Source: Clostridia bacterium
GTDB taxonomy: Bacteria; Bacillota; Clostridia; Oscillospirales; Acutalibacteraceae
Length of the DNA stretch: 34,410 nucleotides
NCBI GenBank assembly: GCA_017407755.1
Contig: JAFQVY010000002.1
Coordinates: 1-34,410, forward strand
Direction: 5' to 3'
Shown here: positions 1 through 15,455 of the stretch, one piece after another
How positions within the stretch are numbered: the stretch's first letter is position 1
Layout of the letters: each line of letters opens with the position of its first letter
Notes under the pieces: model-generated
The model's database searches: none
What the model was told of the DNA's origin: nothing
The model's input: the letters and a program-made list of their open reading frames with translations, nothing else
Translations under genes and position numbers: made by a program

Positions 1-299
1 CCATAGTCCAAGGCAAGTTCTGTGCCTTCGATGATCGGTGCAAGTTCTTCAAGCTCGGTACGAATTTCCTGTTCAGAAGGACACACCTCAATGCCTGACT
101 GCTTGAACATAGAGAGGCTATAATACTCTCTTGCCCAATTGGGATGCAGCTTCAAAAATTCCTCATTGGATGCATTGATGCCGAGGTTCGGATTGCCGTA
201 TTGGTCTTCCGTGTCATACACCATTTCGATGCTTCCGTCTTCCATAAGGATTTTCATACCTGCCTTGATTTCCTTGCCATTCTTATCAAAATACTGCAT
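1..299 (-). CDS. Unrecognised small protein, C-terminus cut by window edge
   Basis: An open frame runs from ATG at 299-297 to the left edge without a stop, about 99 residues. The start is set by an AAAGGAGA ribosome site eight bases upstream. The product begins MQYFDKNGKEIKAGMKILM and goes on with short charged stretches, a DQYGNPNLGINAS motif and a glutamate-rich end. It has no signal peptide or membrane segment. I recall similar small proteins from accessory or conjugative regions of Clostridia, but that is an impression, not a family assignment. Three terminator-like hairpins separate it from the tRNA-fMet gene, so it is probably a separate transcription unit. Function unknown. Confidence 0.7.
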   Translation of the reverse strand, partial: MQYFDKNGKEIKAGMKILMEDGSIEMVYDTEDQYGNPNLGINASNEEFLKLHPNWAREYYSLSMFKQSGIEVCPSEQEIRTELEELAPIIEGTELALDY

Positions 300-361
300 G
301 GGACATTTCTCCTTTCCGATTTATTTACTCATCCTCATGGTTGGAGGAGGGAGTACAAAAC

Positions 362-400
362 AAAAAAGGAGGTTGCGCGTAAAATGTAAGCGCAACCTCC
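362..400 (-). terminator. Rho-independent terminator-like hairpin
   Basis: A perfect 11-bp stem (arms 368-378 and 390-400, GGAGGTTGCGC) with an 11-nt loop. On the minus strand it is followed by a six-T run (complement of 362-367). What it terminates is unclear, because no gene lies between it and the next hairpin at 438-477. It sits upstream of the small gene starting at 299 and would shield it from readthrough. Confidence 0.65.
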
Positions 401-432
401 CAAGACATAAACATTTAACAATTAGAAAAACG

Positions 433-477
433 AAAAAAGGGGCAGATCCTACGAAATAAATCGCAAAATCTGCCCCT
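433..477 (-). terminator. Terminator-like hairpin
   Basis: Arms AGGGGCAGAT (438-447) and ATCTGCCCCT (468-477) form a 10-bp stem with a 20-nt loop. On the minus strand it runs into six T (complement of 433-438). The loop is longer than usual for an intrinsic terminator. It is the second of three minus-strand T-run hairpins between the tRNA gene and the left-edge gene. Confidence 0.5.
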
Positions 478-564
478 AAAAGCCCAGGTATTTAGTTCAA
501 GTCCTCCCCAAAGGTCGTTTTTGGGAAATGATATCTTTTGAATTCCACCTTGAAAAATGGCACG

Positions 565-599
565 AAAAAACCCAGAAACCGTTGTGGTTTCTGGGTTTT
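565..599 (-). terminator. Terminator of the tRNA-fMet transcript
   Basis: A perfect 14-bp stem (567-580 with 586-599; AAAACCCAGAAACC) around a 5-nt loop. On the minus strand it ends in a T tract (complement of 565-570). It lies just downstream of the minus-strand tRNA and is the best candidate for ending that transcript. The plus strand also has a short T run after the stem, so it may work both ways. Confidence 0.75.
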
Positions 600-600
600 C

Positions 601-624
601 CGAACCGATATCTTTTTCGGTTCG
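601..624 (-). other. Perfect 8-bp hairpin in the tRNA trailer
   Basis: CGAACCGA (601-608) and TCGGTTCG (617-624) pair perfectly around an 8-nt loop. It lies seven bases past the encoded CCA of the tRNA. It has no T run of its own, so it may be a processing or stability element of the tRNA 3' trailer. This is inference from structure only. Confidence 0.45.
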
Positions 625-630
625 CAATGT

Positions 631-708
631 TGGTTGCGGAGGAAGGATTTGAACCAACGACCTCCGGGTTATGAGCCCGACGAGCTAACCAGGCTGCTCT
701 ACTCCGCG
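631..708 (-). tRNA. Initiator tRNA-fMet (anticodon CAU)
   Basis: The minus strand gives a 78-nt cloverleaf with encoded CCA (complement of 631-633). Initiator identity rests on the unpaired C1-A72 at the acceptor tip and three consecutive G-C pairs in the anticodon stem around loop CTCATAA (anticodon complement 671-673). The D-stem GAGC/GCTC is intact. One oddity: the T-stem arms GTTGG and CCTTC leave two adjacent U-U oppositions, although the loop TTCAAAT is standard. It is transcribed from the promoter at 741-769 and probably ends at the hairpin at 565-599. Confidence 0.95.
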
Positions 709-740
709 ATATATTAGGATTCCTTTGAGGAACGTTATTT

Positions 741-769
741 ATTTTAGCATAGCAAAAAGCTTTTGTCAA
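741..769 (-). promoter_or_regulatory. Sigma-A promoter of tRNA-fMet
   Basis: On the minus strand, TTGACA (complement of 764-769), a 17-bp spacer and TAAAAT (complement of 741-746), with TGC directly before the -10. This is a near-ideal extended -10 promoter about 33 bp upstream of the mature tRNA end. The block CTATGCTAAAAT recurs in the divergent promoter at 823-851. Confidence 0.85.
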
Positions 770-822
770 TAGCAAAGAGCTATTTTTGCAGAAAAAGCCT
801 TCGATAAAATCCGACAAAGTTA

Positions 823-851
823 TTGACTATCCTGATAGACTATGCTAAAAT
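823..851 (+). promoter_or_regulatory. Sigma-A promoter of the Cys-rich protein gene
   Basis: TTGACT (823-828), a 17-bp spacer and TAAAAT (846-851), with an extended TGC before the -10. Transcription would start near 858, almost at the Shine-Dalgarno sequence, so the leader is very short. Confidence 0.8.
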
Positions 852-873
852 GCTTTTAAAAGGAGGCATATTT

Positions 874-1815
874 ATGAAATATATTTCTGCAAACAAAATC
901 TCAGATTTCGTTTTTCACGATGCAGTTTTTGAGCTTACAAGTTTTAAAAACAACGATTTAACAGTAAGCGCACAACTTCTTAATATACACAAAACCGCTG
1001 AGCAAAACCCCTTTGATGCAGATATGGAAATTAACAAAGCAAAAATCACCTTTAAAAATTTTCGTATTGTTTCCTTTAAGGAAGGCGACTGCAAAACAAG
1101 AAACGAAAACGGCGAATGGGTAATCAAGAAAACTTTTGACACGCTTTACAGCAAAGAGGCTCTTGATGCCTTTATAAATGAATTTGAAGATTCGCTTACG
1201 GTTTATTATTTGGGCAAAGAAAACGAAAATGAATATATGATAGATGCCATGGGTGCCTCCCCCTATTTTACTGTAATTTTCGGTTGCAGTGATGTAATTA
1301 TAGAGTGGGACGAATACCGAAAAAAGGCTTGGTATGAGCTTCACAGGCAATACAAATTCCCCGTTGCACTCGCAACCTTTGAGGGAGATATAAAAACCGA
1401 CTTGCATATTATATGCCACGATGAGGACGTTTATTGTCAGGGTCAGCTTGAGAAAGCTCCTGTTATAACTGCAGGTCTTAAGTATAAAGATAAAGAAATA
1501 TGGGGTAACGGCAAAGATACCTTGTGGGTTGACGCTATTGCTGATTTGCAAAAGAAACTGCCCGAAAAAATAACGCTCAAGTGCTGTCTTACCTGCCGAT
1601 TCGGCAATATGTGCCCCTTTGGAAACAAAGCAGGAGAGGTGTTCTGTACCAAAGGCAAGTCTGTTTTCTCAAAGCAGGACGTGTGCAATTTATTTGATAA
1701 CTCTGCGGATATGGAAAAGCTTTCCCGAAGCTACACCGACATTTGCGAAAATTTTGAAGCACAAACCAAAGAGCACTATACATACAACGACTTTTTATAT
1801 CAGCTTGAAAAATAA
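874..1815 (+). CDS. Cys-rich protein of unknown function, 313 aa
   Basis: I do not recognise the family. The start ATG at 874 has AAAAGGAGG eight bases upstream; an in-frame ATG further upstream would lie inside the promoter, so it is rejected. The product is soluble, acidic and has no signal peptide or membrane segment. Its first ~230 residues look like a beta-rich domain. Residues 237-258 hold a Cys cluster, CC-x2-C-x5-C-x10-C, with further Cys at 271 and 291; this could bind zinc or an iron-sulfur cluster. It is a single-gene unit with its own promoter and terminator, convergent with the Nudix gene. The name is limited to what is seen. Confidence 0.85.
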   Translation: MKYISANKISDFVFHDAVFELTSFKNNDLTVSAQLLNIHKTAEQNPFDADMEINKAKITFKNFRIVSFKEGDCKTRNENGEWVIKKTFDTLYSKEALDAFINEFEDSLTVYYLGKENENEYMIDAMGASPYFTVIFGCSDVIIEWDEYRKKAWYELHRQYKFPVALATFEGDIKTDLHIICHDEDVYCQGQLEKAPVITAGLKYKDKEIWGNGKDTLWVDAIADLQKKLPEKITLKCCLTCRFGNMCPFGNKAGEVFCTKGKSVFSKQDVCNLFDNSADMEKLSRSYTDICENFEAQTKEHYTYNDFLYQLEK

Positions 1816-1837
1816 TCGAAATTAGAGTAACAAACAA

Positions 1838-1867
1838 GGGCTGCCTCGTTCTTTAATGAGGCAGCCC
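1838..1867. terminator. Bidirectional terminator between convergent genes
   Basis: GGGCTGCCTC (1838-1847) and GAGGCAGCCC (1858-1867) pair perfectly around a 10-nt loop, followed on the plus strand by a T-rich tract. It sits between the stop codons at 1815 (plus) and 1874 (minus). The plus-strand side looks stronger. Confidence 0.75.
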
Positions 1868-1873
1868 CTTATT

Positions 1874-2593
1874 TTATATATTAGCTTTTTTGGCAAGGTG
1901 GTCTTCGTAGTATTCTCTTGCCTTGTCAATAACCCTAAGGTCGTTTTCGTAGGTACAAACCCGCTTTGCATCGCTAAGCTTTACCCACGTGTAGCTTTCG
2001 ATTTCAGATTCCTGAATTTTCACCTTGTTGCTTTTTGCGGCGGCAAGGAAGAACACAACCCTTTTGCGGATTTTGCCGAAAGGACAATAGTCGCTTATTT
2101 CACGGAAATTATCGAGAATTTCAACGTCAAGGTCGGTTTCTTCTTTAATTTCTCTAACGGCAGTTTCTTTCTCGTTTTCCCAAAGCTCAACGTGGCCTTT
2201 TGGAAAGCTCCAGAACCTGCCCTTTTGATTTTTAACCAAAAGTATGCTTGCTTCGCTGTCGTCTTTTTCTTTATAAAGAATAACCGCGCCGCAGCTTTTT
2301 TCGTAAAGACAACTGAGCTTTTCTATATTTAAGAATCTTACTGTGCTGAGCCTCTGCCTTATTTCGGGCTCATACATAATATCCTGCTTTTGGGTAACAA
2401 CGTACTTTTCACTGCCGTCGCTCTGGGTAATTACGGCAGTAACAACGCCGTAAATATAATCCCCCACAGGCCTTCTTGAAAGAATATATACACGCTCGCC
2501 TGAGCACGCCTCGCTGGTTATATAACCTGAATACACGCCGCTTTTTTCATTTAAAGAGCCGTATATTTCGGCTTTAACTTCTTTGGATAACAC
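1874..2593 (-). CDS. Nudix hydrolase with N-terminal extension, 239 aa
   Basis: The Nudix box spans residues 133-155 with G133, E139, R147-E148 and E151-E152 in the metal-binding pattern; the usual Gly near the end is D154. It resembles the Ap4A-hydrolase branch in having FPKGHVE, so likely substrates are dinucleoside polyphosphates or other NDP-X compounds, but specificity cannot be read. Residues 1-80 are a separate domain. Its YILSRRPV and GVVTAVITQSDG stretches recall the N-terminal part of clostridial inorganic pyrophosphatases; that is a weak match by eye. The start is GTG at 2593-2591 with AGGAGAG upstream. It lies 28 bp behind the DHHW gene and is probably co-transcribed with it. Confidence 0.88.
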   Translation of the reverse strand: MLSKEVKAEIYGSLNEKSGVYSGYITSEACSGERVYILSRRPVGDYIYGVVTAVITQSDGSEKYVVTQKQDIMYEPEIRQRLSTVRFLNIEKLSCLYEKSCGAVILYKEKDDSEASILLVKNQKGRFWSFPKGHVELWENEKETAVREIKEETDLDVEILDNFREISDYCPFGKIRKRVVFFLAAAKSNKVKIQESEIESYTWVKLSDAKRVCTYENDLRVIDKAREYYEDHLAKKANI

Positions 2594-2621
2594 TTTTATC
2601 TCTCCTCTCAGACGCCATTAA

Positions 2622-3926
2622 TCAGCCGAATACATTTGATATTGAATCAACCTGAGAGGCAGTGTTTGCAGACATAGTATTGTTTAAGAACAATACTTCC
2701 TTGATGCCGTTGTCCTTTAAATACTGGTTAAGGTCACCGTACCAGTAGCGGTAGTCAATAAGGTGAACCTCGTCGTAGTTTGCAGAAAGGTAAGGGGCAA
2801 AGGCATTGGCAAAGCTGTCCTTAACCACGGCAATTTTTCTGCCTGTAGTGCAGTCGGAATGAATTACAAACTGTGCAGTATCACCCCAACAGAAAATGCC
2901 GTAGGTAAGCTCGCCTGCCGCACCGGCAGGATAGTAAACATCAACCGTTAGAGCTGTGCCGCCCTGACGCTCGTTCATAATTGCATAGGTATTGTTGGGC
3001 AGGCTGTAGTAGTCTACAGTATCGGTATTGTTTGAAAGCACTGAACTGCCCGTAGCAGTATAAAGAGAACCCAAAAAGCCGTCAACGCTTGATTTTTCGC
3101 TCTTTGTAATATCCATAGGAGTAAGACCCAAGGTTTCACAGAAGGCTTCATAGCCATAGTAAGCACCTAAGGCTGTCCAATGGTGGTCTGTACCGTAGAA
3201 AATATATTCGTTGCAATGCTCAGAAAGATTATTGTAGCAGTCAATGGGAGTTACTCTGTCGCTCAGATTATCTATTATATGTTTAATATTATCTGACTGA
3301 GAGTCGGTCTCTATTCCGCTTTTTATAAGTCTTTCGGGAAGTCCAAACTCAGTATGGTTGCCAACAACCATATTGTAAACCTTTACGTCCTTAGAAAGCT
3401 TATTGGCGTAGCCGTTAATGGCATCGGCGTAATATTTTGCCGCCTTGTTGCCGCTGTAGAACAGATTGAACGCCTTGTTGTTCCATATACAAATTGTATT
3501 TGTAGCCATTACCGCGTCACTTCCGTCGTCAATAACAGCAGGCTTAATATGCCCCTCAACAACAGGAGTTATGGCGGTGGTTTCTACCACAGTTGTTTCT
3601 GCCACGGTGGTTTCTACCGCAGTTGTCTCTGCCTCGGTAGGCGCTTCAGTTGTTACTGCGGCTGTGGTTTCAATAACCGCTACTTCGTCTTTTGTAGCTT
3701 CGTCAGGAGTAGCTGAGGCAAGGCTTGCAAAAAAGGGCACAAGCACAAAATAAGTAAGTGCCGCAATTCCTGCCACTACTAAAACTGCAGCGGCAATAAT
3801 CAGTGCTCTGAACAGTAATTTTTTCTGAACCCTCTTTTTTCTTTTTCTGTGTTTTCGGTTTACTGTGTAGCTTGAGCCCACCATACCGATAAAAAATTCA
3901 TCGTTTCCCCTTCGTCTTCTTCTCAT
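2622..3926 (-). CDS. Membrane-anchored DHHW/SGNH-type protein, 434 aa
   Basis: The start ATG (3926-3924) is preferred over an upstream in-frame ATG because GGAGG lies 7 bases before it. The order is a very basic cytoplasmic tail (1-37), one membrane helix (about 38-66), a Thr/Glu-rich repeat linker (72-121) and an extracellular catalytic-type domain. That domain carries DHHW (247-250) and the C-terminal KDSFANAF motif (369-376), hallmarks of the DHHW family related to the AlgX/AlgJ SGNH fold. Family members usually work with an MBOAT acyltransferase in O-acetylating surface polysaccharides. No MBOAT gene is in this window, so the partner is unknown. The Nudix gene follows 28 bp downstream. 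Confidence 0.87.
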   Translation of the reverse strand: MRRRRRGNDEFFIGMVGSSYTVNRKHRKRKKRVQKKLLFRALIIAAAVLVVAGIAALTYFVLVPFFASLASATPDEATKDEVAVIETTAAVTTEAPTEAETTAVETTVAETTVVETTAITPVVEGHIKPAVIDDGSDAVMATNTICIWNNKAFNLFYSGNKAAKYYADAINGYANKLSKDVKVYNMVVGNHTEFGLPERLIKSGIETDSQSDNIKHIIDNLSDRVTPIDCYNNLSEHCNEYIFYGTDHHWTALGAYYGYEAFCETLGLTPMDITKSEKSSVDGFLGSLYTATGSSVLSNNTDTVDYYSLPNNTYAIMNERQGGTALTVDVYYPAGAAGELTYGIFCWGDTAQFVIHSDCTTGRKIAVVKDSFANAFAPYLSANYDEVHLIDYRYWYGDLNQYLKDNGIKEVLFLNNTMSANTASQVDSISNVFG

Positions 3927-4002
3927 GGCGTTTCCTCCAAAAAAATCCTTTTCCTTGCTCTGGCTGATGCTTTCAGACAGATTTAGACATTTATACATTA
4001 TA

Positions 4003-4032
4003 ACTATACAACAAAGAATACCGAAAAGGCAA
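4003..4032 (-). promoter_or_regulatory. Probable promoter of the DHHW-Nudix unit
   Basis: On the minus strand, TTGCCT (complement of 4027-4032), an 18-bp spacer and TATAGT (complement of 4003-4008). It lies about 77 bp upstream of the start codon. An overlapping TATAAT nearby could be an alternative -10, but it lacks a good -35. Confidence 0.45.
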
Positions 4033-4100
4033 TAAAAGTAACCGAATTGTGATTATTTTCACCTTAAAAAAGTCGGATTGTAACTGTTTTTGAAAAAAAT

Positions 4101-4129
4101 TTGCACATTGCGAATATATATGATAAAAT
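4101..4129 (+). promoter_or_regulatory. Promoter of the aminotransferase-trpS operon
   Basis: TTGCAC (4101-4106), a 17-bp spacer and TAAAAT (4124-4129), with TGA just before the -10. It is placed 35 bp upstream of the aminotransferase start, in a very A/T-rich intergenic region shared with the divergent DHHW unit. Confidence 0.7.
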
Positions 4130-4163
4130 AAATTTTATATTAAATGAAGCGAGAGGCGTTATT

Positions 4164-5348
4164 ATGAACTATACATTTTCCCATAGAGTTAACACTCTTA
4201 AACCCAGTGCTATACGCGAAATCTTCAAGTATGCCGCCGACCCTGAGGTTGTGTCTCTTTCTGCAGGCAATCCTGCTCCGGACGCTTTCCCCGAAGAGGC
4301 TATAAGAGAAATTTCTGAAAAGCTTTTAAAAGAAAACCCCGTGCTGGCACTTCAGTACGGTCTTACTGAGGGTTATTTGCCTTTAAGAGAAACCCTCAAA
4401 AAATATATGACAGAAAAATACAACGTAAACTTTGAGGGCAACGACCTTATTATTACCTCAGGTGCTCAGCAGGTTATGGATTTGGTGACAAAATCCCTTG
4501 TAAATGAGGGCGACGTGGTTATTACCGAGGCACCTTCCTTTATCGGCTCACTTAACACCTTCAGAAGCTACAACGCTAAGCTTGTAGGTGTGGCTATGGA
4601 CGACGACGGAATGAATATGGAGGCTTTGGAAAAAGCACTTTCTGAAAATGAAAATGTCCGCTTCATCTACACAATCCCCAACTTTCAGAACCCTTCTGGC
4701 ATTACAATGAGCCTAACTAAGAGAAAGAAAATGTACGAGCTTGCCAAAAAGTTTGGTGTGCTTATTTTAGAGGATAACCCCTACGGCGAGCTCAGATATA
4801 AAGGCGAAAATCTTCCCAACATCAAATCCTTTGACGACAGCGGTCTTGTTATTTATGCAGGCTCCTTCTCGAAGGTTATCTCACCCGGTATGCGAGTTGG
4901 CTGGTGTATGGCTCCTAACGAAATCATTCAGAAAATGGTTGTTTGCAAGCAGGGTGAGGACGTTCACACAAATATGTGGTCTCAGGTAATTTGCAATGAG
5001 TTTATGACAAAATACGACTTTGAGGCACACCTCGAAATGCTACGAAATCTCTACAGAGAAAAACTTGAATATACAATGAACCTCTTAAAAGAAAACCTCA
5101 GTGAGAAAATCACCTGCACTGACGTTGAGGGCGGTTTATTTATATGGTGCACACTGCCAAAAGACGTTGATATGAACGCTTTCTGCCTTGAGCTTGTAAA
5201 GAACAAGGTTTGTGTAGTTCCCGGCAACGCATTTCTTACAGACGAAAAAGAAATTTCCCACAACTTCCGCATTAATTTCTCAACACCCTCAAACGAACAG
5301 CTTAAGAAGGGCATTGAGATTTTAGGCAGAGTTTCAAAAACACTTTAA
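4164..5348 (+). CDS. PLP-dependent aminotransferase, class I/II, 394 aa
   Basis: A fold-type I aminotransferase of the 2-aminoadipate/MocR-catalytic-domain type. Key features are the NPSG motif (176-179), the EDNPYGELR stretch (D204, Y207) and the PLP lysine K237 in SFSKVISPGMRVGW, with R244 in place for the substrate carboxylate. The usual N-terminal helix-turn-helix of MocR regulators is absent, so it is a free enzyme. It should transfer an amino group between an amino acid and 2-oxoglutarate; the substrate (aromatic, branched-chain or 2-aminoadipate) cannot be fixed from sequence. The start ATG follows a GCGAGAGG site; a longer in-frame start overlaps the promoter and is rejected. trpS follows 15 bp later. 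Confidence 0.93.
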   Translation: MNYTFSHRVNTLKPSAIREIFKYAADPEVVSLSAGNPAPDAFPEEAIREISEKLLKENPVLALQYGLTEGYLPLRETLKKYMTEKYNVNFEGNDLIITSGAQQVMDLVTKSLVNEGDVVITEAPSFIGSLNTFRSYNAKLVGVAMDDDGMNMEALEKALSENENVRFIYTIPNFQNPSGITMSLTKRKKMYELAKKFGVLILEDNPYGELRYKGENLPNIKSFDDSGLVIYAGSFSKVISPGMRVGWCMAPNEIIQKMVVCKQGEDVHTNMWSQVICNEFMTKYDFEAHLEMLRNLYREKLEYTMNLLKENLSEKITCTDVEGGLFIWCTLPKDVDMNAFCLELVKNKVCVVPGNAFLTDEKEISHNFRINFSTPSNEQLKKGIEILGRVSKTL

Positions 5349-5363
5349 GCGAGGATTTTTAAA

Positions 5364-6377
5364 ATGGAAAATACAGCAGAAAAGAAAAAAATAGTTTACA
5401 GTGCCATTCAGCCTTCAGGCACAATCACCTTAGGCAACTACCTTGGTGCACTTAAAAACTGGGTGGTTATGCAGGAGGAAGGCACTCACAACTGCATTTA
5501 CACTCTTGCAGATTTACACACAATCACAGTTCGTCAGGAGCCCGCAAAAATGCGTAAAAACGTTCTTGACGCTTACGCTTCAATCCTTGCTTGCGGTGTT
5601 GACGTTGAAAAAAGCATTTTCTTTATCCAGAGTCACGTACATCAGCACGCTGAGCTTGCCTGGATTTTAAACTGCTACACTCAGTTTGGCGAGCTTTCCA
5701 GAATGACTCAGTTTAAAGACAAATCCGCAAAGCACGCTGACAACATCAATGCAGGTCTTTTCACCTACCCCTGCCTTATGGCGGCTGATATTTTGCTTTA
5801 TCAGGCTGACCTTGTTCCCGTTGGTGCTGACCAGAAGCAGCATATTGAATTAGCAAGGGACGTTGCAGGCAGATTCAACTCCATTTACTCCCCCACCTTT
5901 ACTGTTCCCGAAGGCTTTATTCCCAAAAACGGTGCAAGAGTTATGAGCCTTCAGGACCCCACAAAGAAGATGAGCAAATCAGACGAAAATGTAAACGCCT
6001 GTGTTTCACTTCTTGACTCTCCGGACGTTATCCTCAAAAAGTTCAAACGTGCCGTTACCGACAGCGAAGCTCAAGTCCGTTACGGCGAAGGTAAAGACGG
6101 CATCAACAACCTTATGGGTATTTACTCCGTTGTTACAGGCAAGTCTATGGAGGACATCGAAAACGAATTTGCAGGCAAAGGCTACGGCGACTTTAAGGTA
6201 GCCGTTGGCGAAGCTGTTATTGAGGAGCTCAGACCCATAAGAGAAAGGTACGAAAAGCTCATTGCCGATAAAGCATATCTTGAAGAAAGCTACCGCAAGG
6301 GTGCAGAAATTGCAGAAAGAATGGCTCAGCGTACACTTGACAAGGTAATGAAGAAAATCGGCTTTATCCATAAATAA
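5364..6377 (+). CDS. trpS: Tryptophanyl-tRNA synthetase
   Basis: A class I aminoacyl-tRNA synthetase of usual bacterial length (337 aa). The HIGH-equivalent TLGN lies at 22-25 after QPSGT, and KMSKS is intact at 202-206. The TrpRS-type ADLHT and GADQKQHIELARD stretches are also present. It charges tRNA-Trp in the cytosol. It is transcribed behind the aminotransferase with only 15 bp between, and a terminator follows the stop. There is no T-box leader before it, which fits its second position in the operon. Confidence 0.97.
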   Translation: MENTAEKKKIVYSAIQPSGTITLGNYLGALKNWVVMQEEGTHNCIYTLADLHTITVRQEPAKMRKNVLDAYASILACGVDVEKSIFFIQSHVHQHAELAWILNCYTQFGELSRMTQFKDKSAKHADNINAGLFTYPCLMAADILLYQADLVPVGADQKQHIELARDVAGRFNSIYSPTFTVPEGFIPKNGARVMSLQDPTKKMSKSDENVNACVSLLDSPDVILKKFKRAVTDSEAQVRYGEGKDGINNLMGIYSVVTGKSMEDIENEFAGKGYGDFKVAVGEAVIEELRPIRERYEKLIADKAYLEESYRKGAEIAERMAQRTLDKVMKKIGFIHK

Positions 6378-8850: not shown

Positions 8851-9252
8851 ATGTACGATAAGGCACCTTATTTCTATGGTACAGGCAGAAGAAAGAGCTC
8901 TGTTGCTCGTGTTCGCCTCTATCAGGGTACTGGTAAAATTACAATCAACGACAGAGACATCGACGATTACTTCGGTCTCGAAACACTCAAACTCATTGTT
9001 CGTCAGCCTCTTGAGCTTACAGAGACAGGCGCAAAGTTTGACGTAGTTTGCAGAGTTGCAGGCGGCGGTGTTACAGGTCAGGCTGGTGCAATCCGTCACG
9101 GTATCTCCCGTGCACTTCTCCAGTACGACAGCGAAGCACTCCGCAGCGCACTTAAGAAGGCTGGCTTCCTCACACGTGATCCCAGAATGAAAGAGCGTAA
9201 GAAGCCCGGTCTCAAAGGCGCAAGACGTGCTCCCCAGTTCTCAAAGAGATAA
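8851..9252 (+). CDS. rpsI: 30S ribosomal protein S9
   Basis: The product is 133 aa with the S9 hallmarks [15 protein letters not shown], the [19 protein letters not shown] core and the basic tail ending QFSKR, which reaches the P site of the small subunit. AAGGAAGGAGG precedes the ATG. The last codons and the stop lie inside a 29-bp direct repeat (9240-9268) that recurs at 10318-10346, so the 3' end of this gene is a duplicated target; the reading frame stays intact. Confidence 0.97.
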
Positions 9253-9268
9253 TTTTATATTTCTTATA
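9240..9268 (+). repeat. 29-bp direct repeat, left copy (attL-like, in rpsI 3' end)
   Basis: This segment, beginning CTCAAAGAGATAATTT, is identical over 29 bp to 10318-10346. It covers the last three sense codons and stop of rpsI plus 16 bp beyond. A duplicated gene 3' end flanking foreign-looking DNA is the usual footprint of tyrosine-recombinase integration, and the rpsI 3' end is a known integration target in Firmicutes. Confidence 0.85.
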
Positions 9269-9276
9269 CAAACAAA

Positions 9277-9309
9277 AAACCCCGAAACCATCAAGGTTTT
9301 CGGGGTTTT
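9277..9309 (+). terminator. Terminator after rpsI (island copy)
   Basis: AAACCCCGAAACC (9277-9289) pairs with GGTTTTCGGGGTTT (9295-9308) apart from one extra T, then continues in T. It is inside the repeat-bounded segment, so it may have come with the island; another terminator stands after the right repeat. Confidence 0.8.
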
Positions 9310-9331
9310 ATTTGTGCCTTATTTTATGCTT

Positions 9332-9350
9332 TGGTGCAAACCTGGTGCAA
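9332..9350 (+). promoter_or_regulatory. Tandem TGGTGCAA sites, possible integrase arm sites
   Basis: TGGTGCAA occurs at 9332-9339 and again at 9343-9350, an 11-bp period, about one helical turn. The position is just inside the left repeat of the island. Short direct repeats at this place are typical of arm-type binding sites for tyrosine recombinases; binding is inferred. Confidence 0.4.
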
Positions 9351-9353
9351 GTT

Positions 9354-9857
9354 TTATTTTGTAATCATTTCAGCAACTTTGCTATATGTACCTTCGGGCA
9401 TTTTATAATATTTTTGGAAAGATGTCATCGGCATAGCAGTATAGACCATATAGTCGTTTTCGTGAATCCAAAAGACACCGTAAAAATGCTCTTCTGACAC
9501 TGCAAGAGCATCAGATATTTCTGCTTTCGGCTCTTGGCTTAAAACGAGTAATGGCTCTCCGTCTTGAAAAGACAGATAAATATCATCTTGCTCGGTTCTG
9601 TCAACTTCAGTTTCCTCTGCCTTTTCCCATTGCTCCATTATGTATGTGTACAATACCTTTGCATTATCATCTTTTATGACAAATTCTGTTTCATGGTCGG
9701 TTGAACAAACACACTTGAAATCAACAATAGTAGAAACATCTTCGGGATATGTTACAATGGCATCATTATTGTTTTCCTTTGAACAACCAAACAAGGATAT
9801 TAAACAAGCAACCACACAGAGCAAACCAATAACTCGCAACATTTTGTTATTCAACAT
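9354..9857 (-). CDS. Small lipoprotein of unknown function, 167 aa
   Basis: The start ATG (9857-9855) follows GGAGGG by seven bases. The product has a short N-terminus, a hydrophobic stretch and a lipobox ending LFGC, so it should be exported, diacylated on that Cys and held on the outer face of the membrane. The mature part is acidic with no domain I know; it includes a pair of nearby Cys (FKCVCS). It lies inside the rpsI island, 16 bp after the zinc-ribbon gene and in the same transcription unit. Codon use looks more A/T-rich than in neighbouring core genes. Confidence 0.85.
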   Translation of the reverse strand: MLNNKMLRVIGLLCVVACLISLFGCSKENNNDAIVTYPEDVSTIVDFKCVCSTDHETEFVIKDDNAKVLYTYIMEQWEKAEETEVDRTEQDDIYLSFQDGEPLLVLSQEPKAEISDALAVSEEHFYGVFWIHENDYMVYTAMPMTSFQKYYKMPEGTYSKVAEMITK

Positions 9858-9873
9858 TGTAATCCCTCCAATT

Positions 9874-10155
9874 TTATTTCCATCGGTTGATGGCAATGTC
9901 GTTCTCCTTAACTTCTTTTATGGTGTAGGTCTTATCACATTTGTTGCAACGAAAGACGGTCCTTATGAATTTGATATTCCCGACCATAAATCCATCGCCG
10001 TTTGAAAAATCATAGTTTTTTGCTTCTTCCGATTCTGAATTTACAATTGTTTCTGTTTTTGTTTTTTCTAAACGTTCATTACAATAGGGACAATAATGCT
10101 TTTTCATGCAAAAAATCGGGTGAGACCATTCGCGCTTTACACCATGTATTTTCAT
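9874..10155 (-). CDS. Zinc-ribbon protein of unknown function, 93 aa
   Basis: Two Cys pairs, CPYC and CNKC about 50 residues apart, form a likely zinc ribbon, with a hydrophilic middle. There is no signal peptide or membrane segment. The start ATG at 10155-10153 has GAGGTG ten bases upstream; a longer in-frame start would run into the promoter. It is the first gene of the island unit and is followed by the lipoprotein gene. Its job is unknown; nucleic-acid binding is possible, as for many small zinc-ribbon proteins. Confidence 0.82.
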   Translation of the reverse strand: MKIHGVKREWSHPIFCMKKHYCPYCNERLEKTKTETIVNSESEEAKNYDFSNGDGFMVGNIKFIRTVFRCNKCDKTYTIKEVKENDIAINRWK

Positions 10156-10180
10156 AAAGCTAGCACCTCGCTTTTTTCTT

Positions 10181-10209
10181 ATTATAGTATAAGATTGTGA
10201 ATTTTTCAA
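10181..10209 (-). promoter_or_regulatory. Promoter of the island genes
   Basis: On the minus strand, TTGAAA (complement of 10204-10209), a 17-bp spacer and a perfect TATAAT (complement of 10181-10186), about 25 bp before the zinc-ribbon start codon. The island thus has its own sigma-A transcription. Confidence 0.8.
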
Positions 10210-10317
10210 TATTTTGCAATCTTCTTGAGTCATAACAATTCTTATTAGAATAACTATGACTCTTTGTCTTAAACATAGAGTAATTTAGGTTACACGATAT
10301 AAATGGTACACCGAAAA

Positions 10318-10346
10318 CTCAAAGAGATAATTTTATATTTCTTATA
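10318..10346 (+). repeat. 29-bp direct repeat, right copy (attR-like)
   Basis: Identical to 9240-9268. It encodes a non-translated copy of the rpsI terminal codons and stop. The sequence before it, CACCGAAAA, does not match the rpsI coding sequence, so the duplication is limited to these 29 bp. It is followed directly by a strong plus-strand terminator that is probably the original rpsI terminator. Confidence 0.85.
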
Positions 10347-10349
10347 TTA

Positions 10350-10380
10350 CAAGCTCCGTTTTCACGGGGCTTGTTTTTTT
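10350..10380 (+). terminator. Probable ancestral rplM-rpsI terminator
   Basis: CAAGCTCCG (10350-10358) and CGGGGCTTG (10365-10373) pair with one G-T, loop 6 nt, then seven T. It lies 3 bp after the right 29-bp repeat, which is where the rpsI terminator would be if the island were absent. Confidence 0.85.
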
Positions 10381-10419: not shown

Positions 10420-12231
10420 TTAATCGGTATCAAGCTTAAGCACAGCCATAAATGCCTCCTGAGGCACTTCAACAGTACCTAACTGGCGCATACGCTTTTT
10501 GCCCTCTTTCTGCTTCTCTAAAAGCTTCTTCTTTCGGGTAATGTCGCCGCCGTAGCACTTGGCAAGAACGTCTTTTCGCATTGCCTTAACGGTTTCTCTG
10601 GCGATAATCTTGCCGCCGATACAAGCCTGAATGGGCACTTCGAAAAGCTGACGGGGGATTTTATCCTTAAGCTTTTCTGCCATTTTCCTTGCTCTGGGGT
10701 AAGCTTTGTCGGCGTGGATAATAAATGAAAGTGCATCTACAACCTCGCCGTTAAGCATAATGTCAAGCTTAACAAGCTTGCTTTCCTGATAATCCTTAAG
10801 CTCGTAGTCAAAAGAGGCGTAACCCCTTGTTCTTGCTTTTAAGGTGTCGAAAAAGTCGTAGATAATCTCAGCAAGAGGAAGCTCATAGTGAATATCTACT
10901 CTTGCCTCGTCGATATAGGTCATACCCTTGAAATTGCCTCGTCTGTCCTGACAAAGCTCCATAATATTGCCAACGTACTCGGTGGGAGAATAAATATGAG
11001 CATTTGTAATAGGCTCCTCGGTGCTTTGGATAAGGGCAGGGTCAGGATAGTTTGTAGGGTTATCAATCATCTTCACAGTGCCGTCGGTAAAGGTTATGCG
11101 ATAGCTAACAGACGGTGCTGTTGTAATAAGGTCAAGGTTAAATTCTCGCTCTAAACGCTCCTGAATAATTTCCATGTGAAGGAGGCCAAGAAATCCGCAA
11201 CGAAAACCAAAGCCCAAAGCAACCGAGGTTTCTGCCTCGTAAGTAAGGGATGCATCGTTAAGCTTGAGCTTTTCAAGAGCATCTCTGAGGTCACCGTAGC
11301 GTGCACCGTCGGCAGGATAAACACCGCAGAAAACCATTGACTGAATTTCGCGGTAACCCGGCAGAGGTTCGTCGGCAGGGTTTGCGGTTAAGGTAACCGT
11401 GTCGCCAACCTTAGCGTCGCCTAAGGTTTTGATAGAAGCGGTAATGTATCCAACCTCGCCTGCTTTCAGCTCCCCTATAGGGTCAAGAGAGGTGGCAAGC
11501 ATGTGTCCGCACTCAACAACGTTAAATACGGAGCCCGTCTGCATCAATTTAAACTCATCGCCAACCTTTATAGTACCCTCTTTAACTCTTACGTAAATAA
11601 TTACACCCTTGTAGGAGTCATAGTAGGAGTCGAAAATCATAGCCTTTAAGGGAGCATTTTCGTCACCGGTGGGTGCAGGCACCATATTTACAATCTGCTC
11701 TAAAACATCGTGGATATTGATATTTGCCTTTGCTGAAATTTCGGGGCAATCCTCAGCGGGAATGCCGATAATATCCTCAATTTCGTTCTTAACCCTTTTG
11801 GGGTCGGCACTGGGCAAATCAATTTTATTTACAACAGGCAGAATTTCTAAGCCTGTGTCAACTGCAAGGTAGGTATTTGCAAGGGTCTGAGCTTCAATAC
11901 CCTGTGAAGCGTCAACAACCAATACCGCGCCCTCGCAAGCAGCTAACGAACGGCTAACTTCGTAGTTGAAGTCAACATGGCCTGGGGTATCGATAAGGTT
12001 AAAAAGGTAGTCCTCGCCGTCGTCTGCCCTGTATTTAAGAGTAACAGCACGAGCCTTAATGGTGATACCACGCTCACGCTCCAAATCCATATTATCAAGA
12101 AGCTGACTCTGCATATCCCTCTCGCTTACTGCAGAGGTATGTTCTAAAATTCTGTCAGCAAGGGTAGATTTGCCGTGGTCAATGTGGGCAATAATGCTGA
12201 AATTTCTTATTTTATCCTGTGGAAAGTTCAA
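10420..12231 (-). CDS. lepA: Elongation factor 4 (LepA)
   Basis: A translational GTPase of 603 aa. G1 is AHIDHGKST (15-23), the switch has RGITI (54-58), G3 DTPGH (81-85) and G4 NKID (135-138), and the LepA-specific C-terminal domain ends in a Lys-rich region. It acts on stalled or mistranslocated ribosomes. I choose TTG at 12231-12229 as start: AGGTGAG lies five bases before it and the product then begins [11 protein letters not shown] as in other LepA proteins, at normal length. Upstream in-frame starts would add about 30 hydrophobic residues with no ribosome site. Confidence 0.95.
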
Positions 12232-12312
12232 ATTTCTCACCTGTTTCTGAAAATAAAGCTTATACATTAAAATTATAACATAGATTAAAAAAATTAACAA
12301 TATATTTGCAAT

Positions 12313-12341
12313 AAAAAACAGGCACCTCAAAGAAGTGCCTG
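12313..12341 (-). terminator. Terminator of gdhA
   Basis: CAGGCAC (12319-12325) and GTGCCTG (12335-12341) form a stem around a 9-nt loop, and the minus strand then reads TTTTTT (complement of 12313-12318). It stands between the gdhA stop and the lepA start, so lepA needs its own promoter. I could not place that promoter with confidence in 12232-12312. Confidence 0.8.
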
Positions 12342-12378
12342 CCTTAAATCTGAATTTATTACGCTAAAAGTATAGGGA

Positions 12379-13731
12379 TTAAACGCAGCCCTGAGCCTTC
12401 ATAGCCTCTGCAACCTTAATGAAACCAGCAATGTTAGCACCTGCAACCAGGTCGCCCTCCATGCCGTACTCCTTAGCTGCATCGTAGGAGTTCTTGTAGA
12501 TAGCCTTCATAATGCTCTTGAGCTTCTCGTCAACTTCCTCAGCAGACCAGTTGTAGCGCATAGAGTTCTGGCTCATTTCAAGACCACTTACTGCAACGCC
12601 GCCTGCATTAACTGCCTTAGAGGGAGCAACAACTACCTTGTTCTCCTTAAGGAATTCAACAGCCTCGTTAGTTGTGGGCATGTTGGAAACCTCAACGTAG
12701 TACTTAACACCGTTTGCTACAATCTTCTCAGCCTCAGCCATACCTACCTCGTTCTGAGTAGCACAAGGCATAATAATGTCAGCCTTAACGCCCCAAGGCT
12801 TCTCGCCTGCATAGAAGGGAACGCCGAATTTGTCAGCATAATCCTGAACCTTATCACGGCAGGAATCACGCATCTCTAACATATAGTTAATCTTCTCGTC
12901 GGTTGTGATACCGTCCTCGTCGTAGATGTAACCGTCAGGACCTGAAAGTGTAACAACCTTACCGCCGAGCTCCTTAACCTTCTTAACTACACCCCAAGCA
13001 ACGTTACCGAAGCCTGAAACAGCAACTGTCTTTCCCTCAAGTGTTTCGCCGAATGTGTTGAGCATCTCAACTGTATAGTAAACAGCACCGAAGCCTGTAG
13101 CCTCAGGACGGATAAGAGAACCGCCGTACTGTAAGCCCTTACCTGTTAATACGCCTGTGAACTCGTTCTTAAGTCTCTTGTACTGACCGAACATATAGCC
13201 AATCTCACGTGCACCTGTACCGATATCGCCTGCAGGAACGTCGAGGTTAGGGCCGATGTGTCTGTAAAGCTCTGTCATAAAGCTCTGGCAGAAACGCATA
13301 ACTTCGCCGTCGGACTTACCCTTGGGGTCGAAGTCGGAACCGCCCTTGCCACCGCCCATAGGAAGGGTTGTAAGGGAGTTTTTGAAAGTCTGCTCAAAGC
13401 CGAGGAACTTGATAATAGATGCATTAACAGAGGGGTGAAGTCTGATACCGCCCTTGTAAGGACCGATAGCAGAGTTAAACTGAACTCTGAAACCGCGGTT
13501 AACCTGAACCTTGCCGTTATCGTCAACCCAAGGAACACGGAAGAAAATCTGTCTCTCAGGCTCTACGATTCTCTCTAAAACGCCTGCCTCAACGAGGTCG
13601 GGTCTCTTTTCTACAACGGGCTCAAGGGAGGTTAAAACCTCAGTAACTGTCTGAATAAATTCGGGCTCGCCGGGATTTCTTTTCTTTACTCTCTCCAATA
13701 AATCAAGGAGATATTCGTTCTTAAGTGCCAT
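12379..13731 (-). CDS. gdhA: Glutamate dehydrogenase, hexameric NADP-type
   Basis: The enzyme interconverts 2-oxoglutarate plus ammonia and glutamate. The product (450 aa) has the family length of the small hexameric GDH. The substrate-site block PMGGGKGGSDFDP (124-136) carries the catalytic Lys, and the dinucleotide-fold GFGNVAWG follows in the middle. NADP preference is inferred from resemblance to anaerobe NADP enzymes. The ATG at 13731-13729 is chosen; a GTG nine bases upstream is too close to the GGAG site. It is a single-gene unit with its own promoter and terminator, well suited to ammonia assimilation. Confidence 0.95.
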   Translation of the reverse strand: MALKNEYLLDLLERVKKRNPGEPEFIQTVTEVLTSLEPVVEKRPDLVEAGVLERIVEPERQIFFRVPWVDDNGKVQVNRGFRVQFNSAIGPYKGGIRLHPSVNASIIKFLGFEQTFKNSLTTLPMGGGKGGSDFDPKGKSDGEVMRFCQSFMTELYRHIGPNLDVPAGDIGTGAREIGYMFGQYKRLKNEFTGVLTGKGLQYGGSLIRPEATGFGAVYYTVEMLNTFGETLEGKTVAVSGFGNVAWGVVKKVKELGGKVVTLSGPDGYIYDEDGITTDEKINYMLEMRDSCRDKVQDYADKFGVPFYAGEKPWGVKADIIMPCATQNEVGMAEAEKIVANGVKYYVEVSNMPTTNEAVEFLKENKVVVAPSKAVNAGGVAVSGLEMSQNSMRYNWSAEEVDEKLKSIMKAIYKNSYDAAKEYGMEGDLVAGANIAGFIKVAEAMKAQGCV

Positions 13732-13784
13732 TTTTGTCACGGCTCCTTCAAATAAAAATTTTTCGCTATTTTAAGCATAGGTAG

Positions 13785-13813
13785 ATTATACATCATAATA
13801 AGCTTAATTTCAA
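13785..13813 (-). promoter_or_regulatory. Promoter of gdhA
   Basis: On the minus strand, TTGAAA (complement of 13808-13813), a 17-bp spacer and TATAAT (complement of 13785-13790), about 54 bp before the start codon. The rest of the 290-bp gap to pyk is A/T-rich with no other clear structure. Confidence 0.75.
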
Positions 13814-13956
13814 GAGAAAATATGAAATTTTTTCCTTTAATTCCTGCAAATTTTAAGGGTTTTTAGGCTTATTTTCCGTCAAAATGAATGAAAAAGCTAA
13901 AAATTCTGCACAAAATTGCAAAAGTATAAAATTAACAAAAGTTTTAAATTATTATT

Positions 13957-13985
13957 TGTAATAGTGCTTTCTTTGTGGTATCATA
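13957..13985 (+). promoter_or_regulatory. Promoter of pyk
   Basis: TTGTAA (13957-13962), a 17-bp spacer and TATCAT (13980-13985) with an extended TGG before the -10. The leader to the ATG is about 30 nt. Confidence 0.65.
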
Positions 13986-14021
13986 TAAATAAGAACCAAA
14001 TCAAAATCACAGGTGATATAT

Positions 14022-15455
14022 ATGAGAAAAACTAAAATTGTATGCACATTAGGCCCCGCCTGTAACGACAAAGAAACCCTTAAAAAAATGATTATGGCAG
14101 GTATGAACGTTGCCAGAATCAATATGTCTCACGGCGTTTATGACGTGGTTAAAAATCAGGTGGAAATGCTAAACGCCGCCGCCAAAGAATGCGGCAAAAA
14201 CGTGGCAATCTTGCTTGACACAAAGGGCCCTGAGGTAAGAATAGGCACCTTTAAAAACAAAAGCGTTGAGCTAACCGCCGGCCAGAGTTTTGAGCTTTAC
14301 AAGGAGCCCACTGAGGGCAGTGAACAAGGTATCAGCATAAGCTATCCCCGCCTTGTTGACCTTTTATACGCTGACAAAACCGCCGTTGGCAGACAGCTCT
14401 TACTCGACGACGGCAAAATTGTTATGAGCGTGCAGAGTGTAACAAAAGAGAAAATCACCTGTATTGTTATTCAGGGCGGCACCCTTTCAAACCGCAAGTC
14501 AATAAACATTCCCGATTATCATATCAATATGCCCTTCGTCAGTGCACAGGACAGAAAAGACCTTGAGTTCGGACTTTCTTTAGGCGTAACTTACGTTGCC
14601 GCTTCTTTTGTAAGAAGTGCTGACGACGTTATAACAATGCGCGACTTTATCGACAGCTTAGGCTACGAGGGCGTTGAGATTATCTCTAAAATTGAAAATC
14701 AGAGCGGTGTTGACGATATTGACAACATCATCAAAGTAAGCGACGGTATTATGGTAGCAAGGGGCGATATGGGCGTTGAGATTCCCTTTATAAAAATCCC
14801 CGAACTTCAGAAAACCATTATAAGAAAAGTTGTTTATGCAGGTAAGTATGTTATTACCGCAACCCAAATGTTAGAGTCTATGACCCACTCTCCCAGACCT
14901 ACCAGAGCAGAAATCAACGACGTTGCCAATGCGGTTTATGACGGCACCTCTGCCGTTATGCTTTCAGGCGAAAGTGCCGCAGGCGAATTCCCCGTTGAAA
15001 GCGTTGAGACTTTGGCAAACATCTGTTATCAGGCTGAAAAGCACACAGAGTATCACATCTTAAAAGATGTCCACGGAAATATCGAGAAGAAAAACTCTTT
15101 CAGAGAAAACATCTGCAACGCCGCAAAAAACATTGCCGAAAATTTAGGTGCTTCTGCAATTATTGTTGAAAGCAAAACAGGCTCCGTTGCCCGTGCAATG
15201 GCAAGGTGCCGCCCCGACTGCGACATTATCGGTGTTGTAACAAGCATGGACGTTTGCAAAAAGCTCAGCCTTAACTGGGGCATTACCACAGTTTTAGGTA
15301 AAGAAATGAAAGAAAGCGACGACATCACCCGTCAGGCTATGGACAAGGCTATGGAAACCGGCATTGTTAAGAAGGGCGATACAGTCATTGTTATTTCTTC
15401 AAACAAAACTGTTCCCACCTCAGGCACAGATACGCTTAACATCAGAGTAATCTAA
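14022..15455 (+). CDS. pyk: Pyruvate kinase
   Basis: Converts phosphoenolpyruvate and ADP to pyruvate and ATP, the last step of glycolysis. Of 477 aa, it carries the TIM-barrel motifs: RINMSHG (32-38), LLDTKGPEVR (64-73), the catalytic Lys K223 in IISKIEN, the metal site ARGDMGVE (246-253) and TQMLESM (281-287). The C-terminal allosteric domain is present; the PEP-utiliser-like extra domain of some Bacilli is absent. The start ATG follows AGGTGA by four bases; an in-frame GTG that overlaps that site is rejected. Single-gene unit. Confidence 0.96.
   Translation: MRKTKIVCTLGPACNDKETLKKMIMAGMNVARINMSHGVYDVVKNQVEMLNAAAKECGKNVAILLDTKGPEVRIGTFKNKSVELTAGQSFELYKEPTEGSEQGISISYPRLVDLLYADKTAVGRQLLLDDGKIVMSVQSVTKEKITCIVIQGGTLSNRKSINIPDYHINMPFVSAQDRKDLEFGLSLGVTYVAASFVRSADDVITMRDFIDSLGYEGVEIISKIENQSGVDDIDNIIKVSDGIMVARGDMGVEIPFIKIPELQKTIIRKVVYAGKYVITATQMLESMTHSPRPTRAEINDVANAVYDGTSAVMLSGESAAGEFPVESVETLANICYQAEKHTEYHILKDVHGNIEKKNSFRENICNAAKNIAENLGASAIIVESKTGSVARAMARCRPDCDIIGVVTSMDVCKKLSLNWGITTVLGKEMKESDDITRQAMDKAMETGIVKKGDTVIVISSNKTVPTSGTDTLNIRVI

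Follow-up and report, generated by a model that had tools for sequence, protein, structure and literature searches.

In the window, that is, the whole 34,410-base stretch of DNA analysed here (one complete contig, C6, out of the 22 that make up a 1.56-Mb draft genome), a short segment with two genes lies behind the ribosomal protein gene rpsI, raising the question of whether it is a mobile element and, if so, what moves it. A sequence-only reading had described an island bounded by a 29-bp duplication of the rpsI 3′ end, and this duplication proved exact: two identical 29-nt direct copies stand 1,078 bp apart, against a chance expectation of ~4e-9 such pairs, and no 20-mer outside them is directly repeated anywhere in the window. 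Across the genome, the first 20 bases of this core were found in the two copies and at one further place with 3 mismatches; a reversed control also gave 1. We consider it probable, with some reserve, that a tyrosine recombinase placed this 1,078-bp segment, a small integrated element, in the rpsI 3′ end and that the segment belongs to a family of gut-Clostridia islets whose ends are shared but whose cargo can be exchanged.

Both minus-strand genes that had been read between the repeats, for a predicted lipoprotein and a Cys-rich protein, were recovered as ORFs (Table 1). The cargo promoter fared less well: a sigma-70-like site agreeing at 11 of 12 positions is present on the minus strand, but the promoter scan overall was not above chance, with 4 sites found and 3.7 expected. 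Similarly, the idea that rpsI has its terminator solely beyond the second copy holds in part, in that a hairpin does follow this copy, but a hairpin and then TTTTATTT also stand directly behind the first (seen by eye on the plus strand; the terminator scan flagged the minus strand only). Three features are additions to that reading, namely, the inverted repeat behind the first copy, a double TTGGTGCAA motif, and an imperfect palindrome. Inspection by eye also revealed an imperfect inverted repeat, AAGAGATA/TATTTCTT, within the left core. A core with inverted repeats, direct arm repeats, and a fixed distance between them would fit the attachment-site layout of a tyrosine integrase.

Table 1. 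Features of rpsI and the islet behind it, in window coordinates
Feature	Position	Strand	Basis and remarks
rpsI (ribosomal protein S9), target gene	8851..9252	+	ORF; last 13 bases inside left core
Left core (attL), first 29-bp copy	9240..9268	+	Repeat search; rpsI stop inside core
Hairpin with terminator features (CCCCGAAACC..GGTTTTCGGGG), islet left end	9269..9316		Inverted repeat 9269-9287/9298-9316
Putative left arm-type integrase sites, TTGGTGCAAACCTGGTGCAAG, double TTGGTGCAA motif	9331..9351	+	Motif searches, fixed spacing
Cargo 1, predicted lipoprotein, 167 aa	9354..9857	-	ORF; 90.2% DNA identity over 417 bp to L052
Cargo 2, Cys-rich, zinc-ribbon-like protein, 93 aa	9874..10155	-	ORF; Pfam matches all below cut-off
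Cargo promoter-like site, TTGAAA-17-TATAAT	10181..10209	-	Promoter scan, 11/12 match
Imperfect palindrome common to other islets	10227..10262		Sequence comparison
Conserved right end, ACACGATATAAATGGTACACCGAAAA	10292..10317	+	Right-end searches
Right core (attR), second 29-bp copy	10318..10346	+	Repeat search
Terminator-like hairpin right of islet	10349..10374	+	Terminator scan

Comparison within the genus provided a site that lacks the islet. A match to rpsI was obtained in 48 of 60 genus genomes, and 30 rpsI loci, the window included, were read. One of these (L008, in genome G045) harbors a 787-bp islet whose ends are those of the window islet but whose cargo differs; among the other 28, 26 were without the motif and two (L014 and L020), ending within 90 bp, were left out. 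Whole-genome searches placed the left motif in 2 of 161 genus genomes, and likewise the right end (2/161). Only L006 among the genus loci, from a sister genome, has lepA near rpsI, as in the window, where lepA stands beyond the right-hand hairpin. L006 aligns with the window on the rpsI side (94.3% over 88 bp), at the right core and its continuation (91.7% over 36 bp), and on the lepA side (90.0% over 60 bp). Because it is the right copy, not the left, that continues like L006, the hairpin to the right of the islet is probably the native rpsI terminator. The empty sites expected in relatives thus materialized in part: L006 has no islet, yet it is not a plain empty site, as another gene lies between rpsI and lepA. 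Relatives do differ here, rather than all carrying the same genes and repeats.

To what extent do such islets occur elsewhere? A scan of 84,980 species genomes for the left motif returned 25 stretches, all of them titled as Clostridia, Oscillospiraceae, or Ruminococcus MAGs, with the ruminant gut named in 16. A search of the family located the motif at 19 places, spread over 18 of 398 genomes (with the own genome counted) and 14 of 135 genera; a reversed control gave none. Merging by sequence left 35 loci, comprising the 25 from the species-genome scan, the window, and 9 new ones from the family search; the left motif was measured in 33.

Their left ends share one order, core, hairpin, and double TTGGTGCAA motif, followed by cargo that varies. 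As the motif was the search key, its conservation is partly by construction; the distance from core to motif is independent of the pattern used in both motif searches. This distance, counted from the core start, is 91 bp in 26 of the 33 loci and 90, 94, and 103 bp in one each, the other 4 having no core within 130 bp. The rpsI stop codon lies 80 to 93 bp ahead of the motif in 20/33 loci. In eight more (L044, L046, L048, L054, L057, L176, L177, and L178), the rpsI end is 236 to 582 bp ahead of it, with a second core copy ahead of the motif in five and none within 130 bp in L044, L048, and L176. The retrieved sequence lacks rpsI in the last five: L045, L059, and L066 extend no more than 236 bp upstream, 1.7 kb of L051 yields just a 14-residue match with the end of rpsI, and L050 has a satellite element upstream. 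The same hairpin precedes the motif in related islets, including L050, whose neighbor is this satellite and not rpsI. In L186, which was found via the right arm, the left motif is degraded but sits at the same distance from the core (counted by eye).

With regard to the right side, a clear core within 4 kb was seen in 3 of the 22 islets having at least 1.5 kb downstream (window, L049, and L055). L063 retains the right end, its core being diverged, and the remaining 18 showed nothing beyond 3-mismatch matches; L186 has both cores. This scarcity fits decay as well as mobility; note that the islet hosts are draft genomes and that several islets are cut by contig ends. In the family search, the right end was found in 3/398 genomes, corresponding to the islets of L188, L055, and L186. 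A second motif occurs near the right end in L172 (the islet of L063), in L180, and, with a degenerate right end, in L169. No excised circle was seen.

The cargo is diverse. Above-cut-off Pfam names across the islets are S41 peptidase, AMP-binding enzyme, NUDIX, YjbR, ion channel, DUF4304, DUF6560, zinc ribbon, and HTH; many proteins have none, and neither protein of the window islet matched above cut-off. The zinc-ribbon gene of the window has relatives in the islets L042, L057, and L064, with different neighbors in all four; a search of plasmids for its protein found none. Weak matches to 2 proteins were all that PADLOC returned for the 10 proteins submitted. The 162-aa gene of L186, which we take to be ToxN/AbiQ-like, was without a match in Pfam and PADLOC. 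Integrase, conjugation, or mobilization families had no Pfam match among 27 cargo proteins (the 2 of the window and 25 further ones). In this respect the proteins scanned are like the cargo of a CIME, and the window islet is, again as in a CIME, flanked by attL and attR in the form of the 29-bp repeat.

We then asked how similarity between islets relates to that of the rpsI genes beside them. Among the 528 pairs formed by 33 islets, 464 lack an alignable stretch of at least 100 bp; of the 64 alignable pairs, 34 are comparable in that both rpsI genes are available, and 30 are not. The longest islet alignment was more alike than rpsI in 33 of the 34, the exception being L046-L057, where rpsI is identical. 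Illustrative islet versus rpsI identities, with the islet figures being best local alignments, which favor high values, are 90.2 versus 71.9% for window-L052, 97.7 versus 83.6% for L042-L057, and 92.4 versus 75.2% for L055-L061, and, between different genera, 97.8 versus 79.9% for L173-L176 and 89.7 versus 79.3% for window-L064. The difference is small in some pairs, e.g., L178-L181 (80.8 versus 77.6%), and the palindrome and tail, aligned end to end, fall below rpsI in identity in the pairs that involve the window and in many others. It is the excess of islet over rpsI identity, read from sequence, that shows the islets to have moved horizontally between hosts. Together with the sister site without an islet and the islets with other cargo, it supports the earlier suggestion that an element without a recombinase is integrated at the 3′ end of rpsI.

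A possible source of the missing enzyme lies next to one of the islets. In genome G169, rpsI is followed by ∼160 bp, a 6.2-kb element, a core, and the islet; the element stands behind rpsI in L157/L248, and the tandem of islet and satellite is that of L050/L157. On the reverse complement of L157 (about 52-6245), this satellite encodes a 377-aa integrase identified by Pfam and has the same core at both ends, the left one being a copy ∼160 bp behind rpsI and not the rpsI end itself. TGATGTC repeats lie near both ends and, by eye, a hairpin near the left end. We read its other genes, without a scan, as small-terminase-like, ATPase, AlpA-like, and HTH. The satellite thus resembles the islets in its core, left-end hairpin, double arm repeats near both ends, and position near rpsI; it differs in having an integrase and several other genes and in its TGATGTC arms. 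Between two cores in L044 (517-800) lies a 269-bp unit in which no gene was called; it has TGATGTC repeats and resembles a microCIME.

Homologs of the satellite integrase beside TGATGTC repeats and the core were found in L193 (98%), L196 (91%), L194 (79%), and the viral L225 (90%), four loci in which no rpsI was found. In L225 (1004-7297), an integrase-bearing, satellite-like element of 6.2 to 6.3 kb, like that of L157, again lies between two cores with TGATGTC repeats. L195, with 61% integrase identity, instead shows TTGGTGTTT repeats and no core within 2 mismatches. As the arm repeats thus seem to track the integrase, TTGGTGCAA would belong to an unseen member of this clade.

The sequence-only reading had proposed looking for an integrase whose element uses the same core. 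Here, an integrase-bearing element with TTGGTGCAA arms was absent from every search, which took in viral contigs, species and family genomes, and integrase loci; no parent ICE or IME with islet arms came up either. Among viral contigs, the rpsI core plus motif, the left motif, the right end, and the right arm returned 0 stretches each. A looser motif gave two matches there, both set aside, one beside an actinobacterial-looking integrase and one inside a phage gene. Phage records searched with the right end yielded 34 weak partial matches only (E limit 10).

Tyrosine recombinases are present in all 25 carrier genomes scanned, many of them Xer-sized, with none inside the islet by contig comparison. 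PF00589 exceeded its cut-off on the islet contig only in G169, through the adjoining satellite, and in G161, ∼19 kb away. When arms and core were sought in the integrase loci of these carriers and in L034 and L035, the sole finds were the islet adjoining the satellite (L108) and a 5-mismatch match in L098. Clustering of 64 integrase-like ORFs gave one group of 41, mostly of 295 to 334 aa, and other groups of at most 4. Of 30 loci encoding a relative of the satellite integrase, not one had TTGGTGCAA arms within 5 mismatches, the core being present in L193, L194, L196, and L207; for 11 related viral loci, the core was found only in L225 and TTGGTGCAA arms in none.

Among known elements, the CIME comes closest, and CIMEs at rpsI have already been described in streptococci. 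PMC7563491 reports Streptococcus salivarius CIMEs with 1.2 to 13 kb of cargo, gene-free microCIMEs of 130 to 220 bp, and tandems at rpmG, rpsI, fda, and rplL; a CIME is defined in PMC5704250 as the decay product of an ICE or IME. CIMEs and microCIMEs of Streptococcus (PMC7563491, PMC5704250) share with the islets the kept attachment sites, cargo without integrase or transfer genes, the rpsI 3′ end, and the tandems. The islets differ in that hosts from at least 14 genera have islets with these ends, at a fixed spacing and with cargo that is exchangeable, and in that a parent with these arms was not found. IMESag-rpsI is also integrated in the rpsI 3′ end, but is described in PMC5090054 and PMC5704250 as a 9.1-kb element with its own tyrosine integrase, a MobV relaxase, and a Rep_Trans protein. 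CALINs and MITEs are, like the islets, helper-dependent hitchers without their own enzyme; as outlined in PMC11389934, CALINs are attC cassette arrays using the integron integrase and MITEs use transposases, whereas in the islets the core, with its arm-like repeats, points to an integrase of the phage type. A literature search, mainly by listings, brought up nothing naming this islet family in gut Clostridia.

Might the islets be CIMEs in the strict sense, i.e., decayed remnants of an ICE, IME, or satellite with kept attachment sites, moved only in cis by an adjoining element? The precedent of cargo CIMEs and microCIMEs in tandem at rpsI (PMC7563491), the L050/L157 tandem with an integrase-bearing satellite, the satellite-type ends of the L044 unit, and the right core not seen in 18/22 islets would all agree with this. 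We nevertheless regard it as a minority prospect, if a serious one: none of the 27 cargo proteins scanned matched an integrase or transfer-gene family, identical ends and spacing recur with unrelated cargo, and the adjoining satellite has different arms. A single ancestral rpsI insertion, inherited by many genera with its cargo replaced by homologous recombination, would account for most hosts sharing the site, but the patchy occurrence in family and genus (18/398 and 2/161 genomes) and the excess of islet over rpsI identity in 33/34 pairs render it very improbable.

Equally hard to credit is a resident integrase unrelated to the satellites as the helper, for instance, the 406-aa integrase common to both islet carriers of the genus, encoded at G000:C13:1-258 (L035, partial, at a contig edge) and at L132 1011-2231. 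The two copies are 98.8% identical over 86 aa. However, the family is widespread (47/161 genus genomes, with at least 11 matches in two genomes, some in rows on one contig), no arm or core turned up in 14 kb of sequence next to either copy, and no close copy exists among the integrase-like ORFs of the other 24 carriers.

Our best reading is instead that the islets may be non-autonomous elements moved in trans by an unseen integrase of the satellite clade; what the sequence comparisons indicate as real is that the window islet is a member of a CIME-like, integrase-less family moving between hosts. A tyrosine recombinase would insert the islet at the short core in the rpsI 3′ end, and recombination at the core would restore the rpsI end and leave a core on both sides. 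The element itself would consist of a terminator-like hairpin, arm-type sites made of directly repeated TTGGTGCAA, cargo under a promoter, and the conserved right end, and would lack an integrase. The integrase would bind the TTGGTGCAA repeats, belong to the clade of satellites with TGATGTC or TTGGTGTTT repeats, and act in trans when a helper element is in the same cell. More tentatively, the rpsI end might be a cassette-like gene-exchange site, where islets of one or a few genes, each with hairpin, promoter, core, and arms, are put in and at times stacked by a phage-type integrase that another element provides in trans; this would resemble an integron in Gram-positive gut bacteria, but with attachment sites of the phage type. 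If movement in trans holds true, units of one or a few genes could cross gut-bacterial genera although they encode no mobility function, and integrase-based surveys are blind to them. The shared ends offer a simple handle for listing islets and seeking the helper integrase.

Other observations concern the islets' internal sequence and arrangement. The imperfect palindrome of the window and other islets precedes the cargo promoter, and in several islets a long, AT-rich tail accompanies it; within 3 mismatches, the palindrome was found in 9 of 26 genomes, as a single copy in each. Rfam had no match in 5 loci tested. L187 contains an apparent array (11794-14762), with three full cores in a row and one degenerate core, an HTH gene, and other cargo. 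By eye, an inverted copy of the rpsI 3′ end stands behind a hairpin, downstream of rpsI in L044, L048, and L176 and at the right end of L188.
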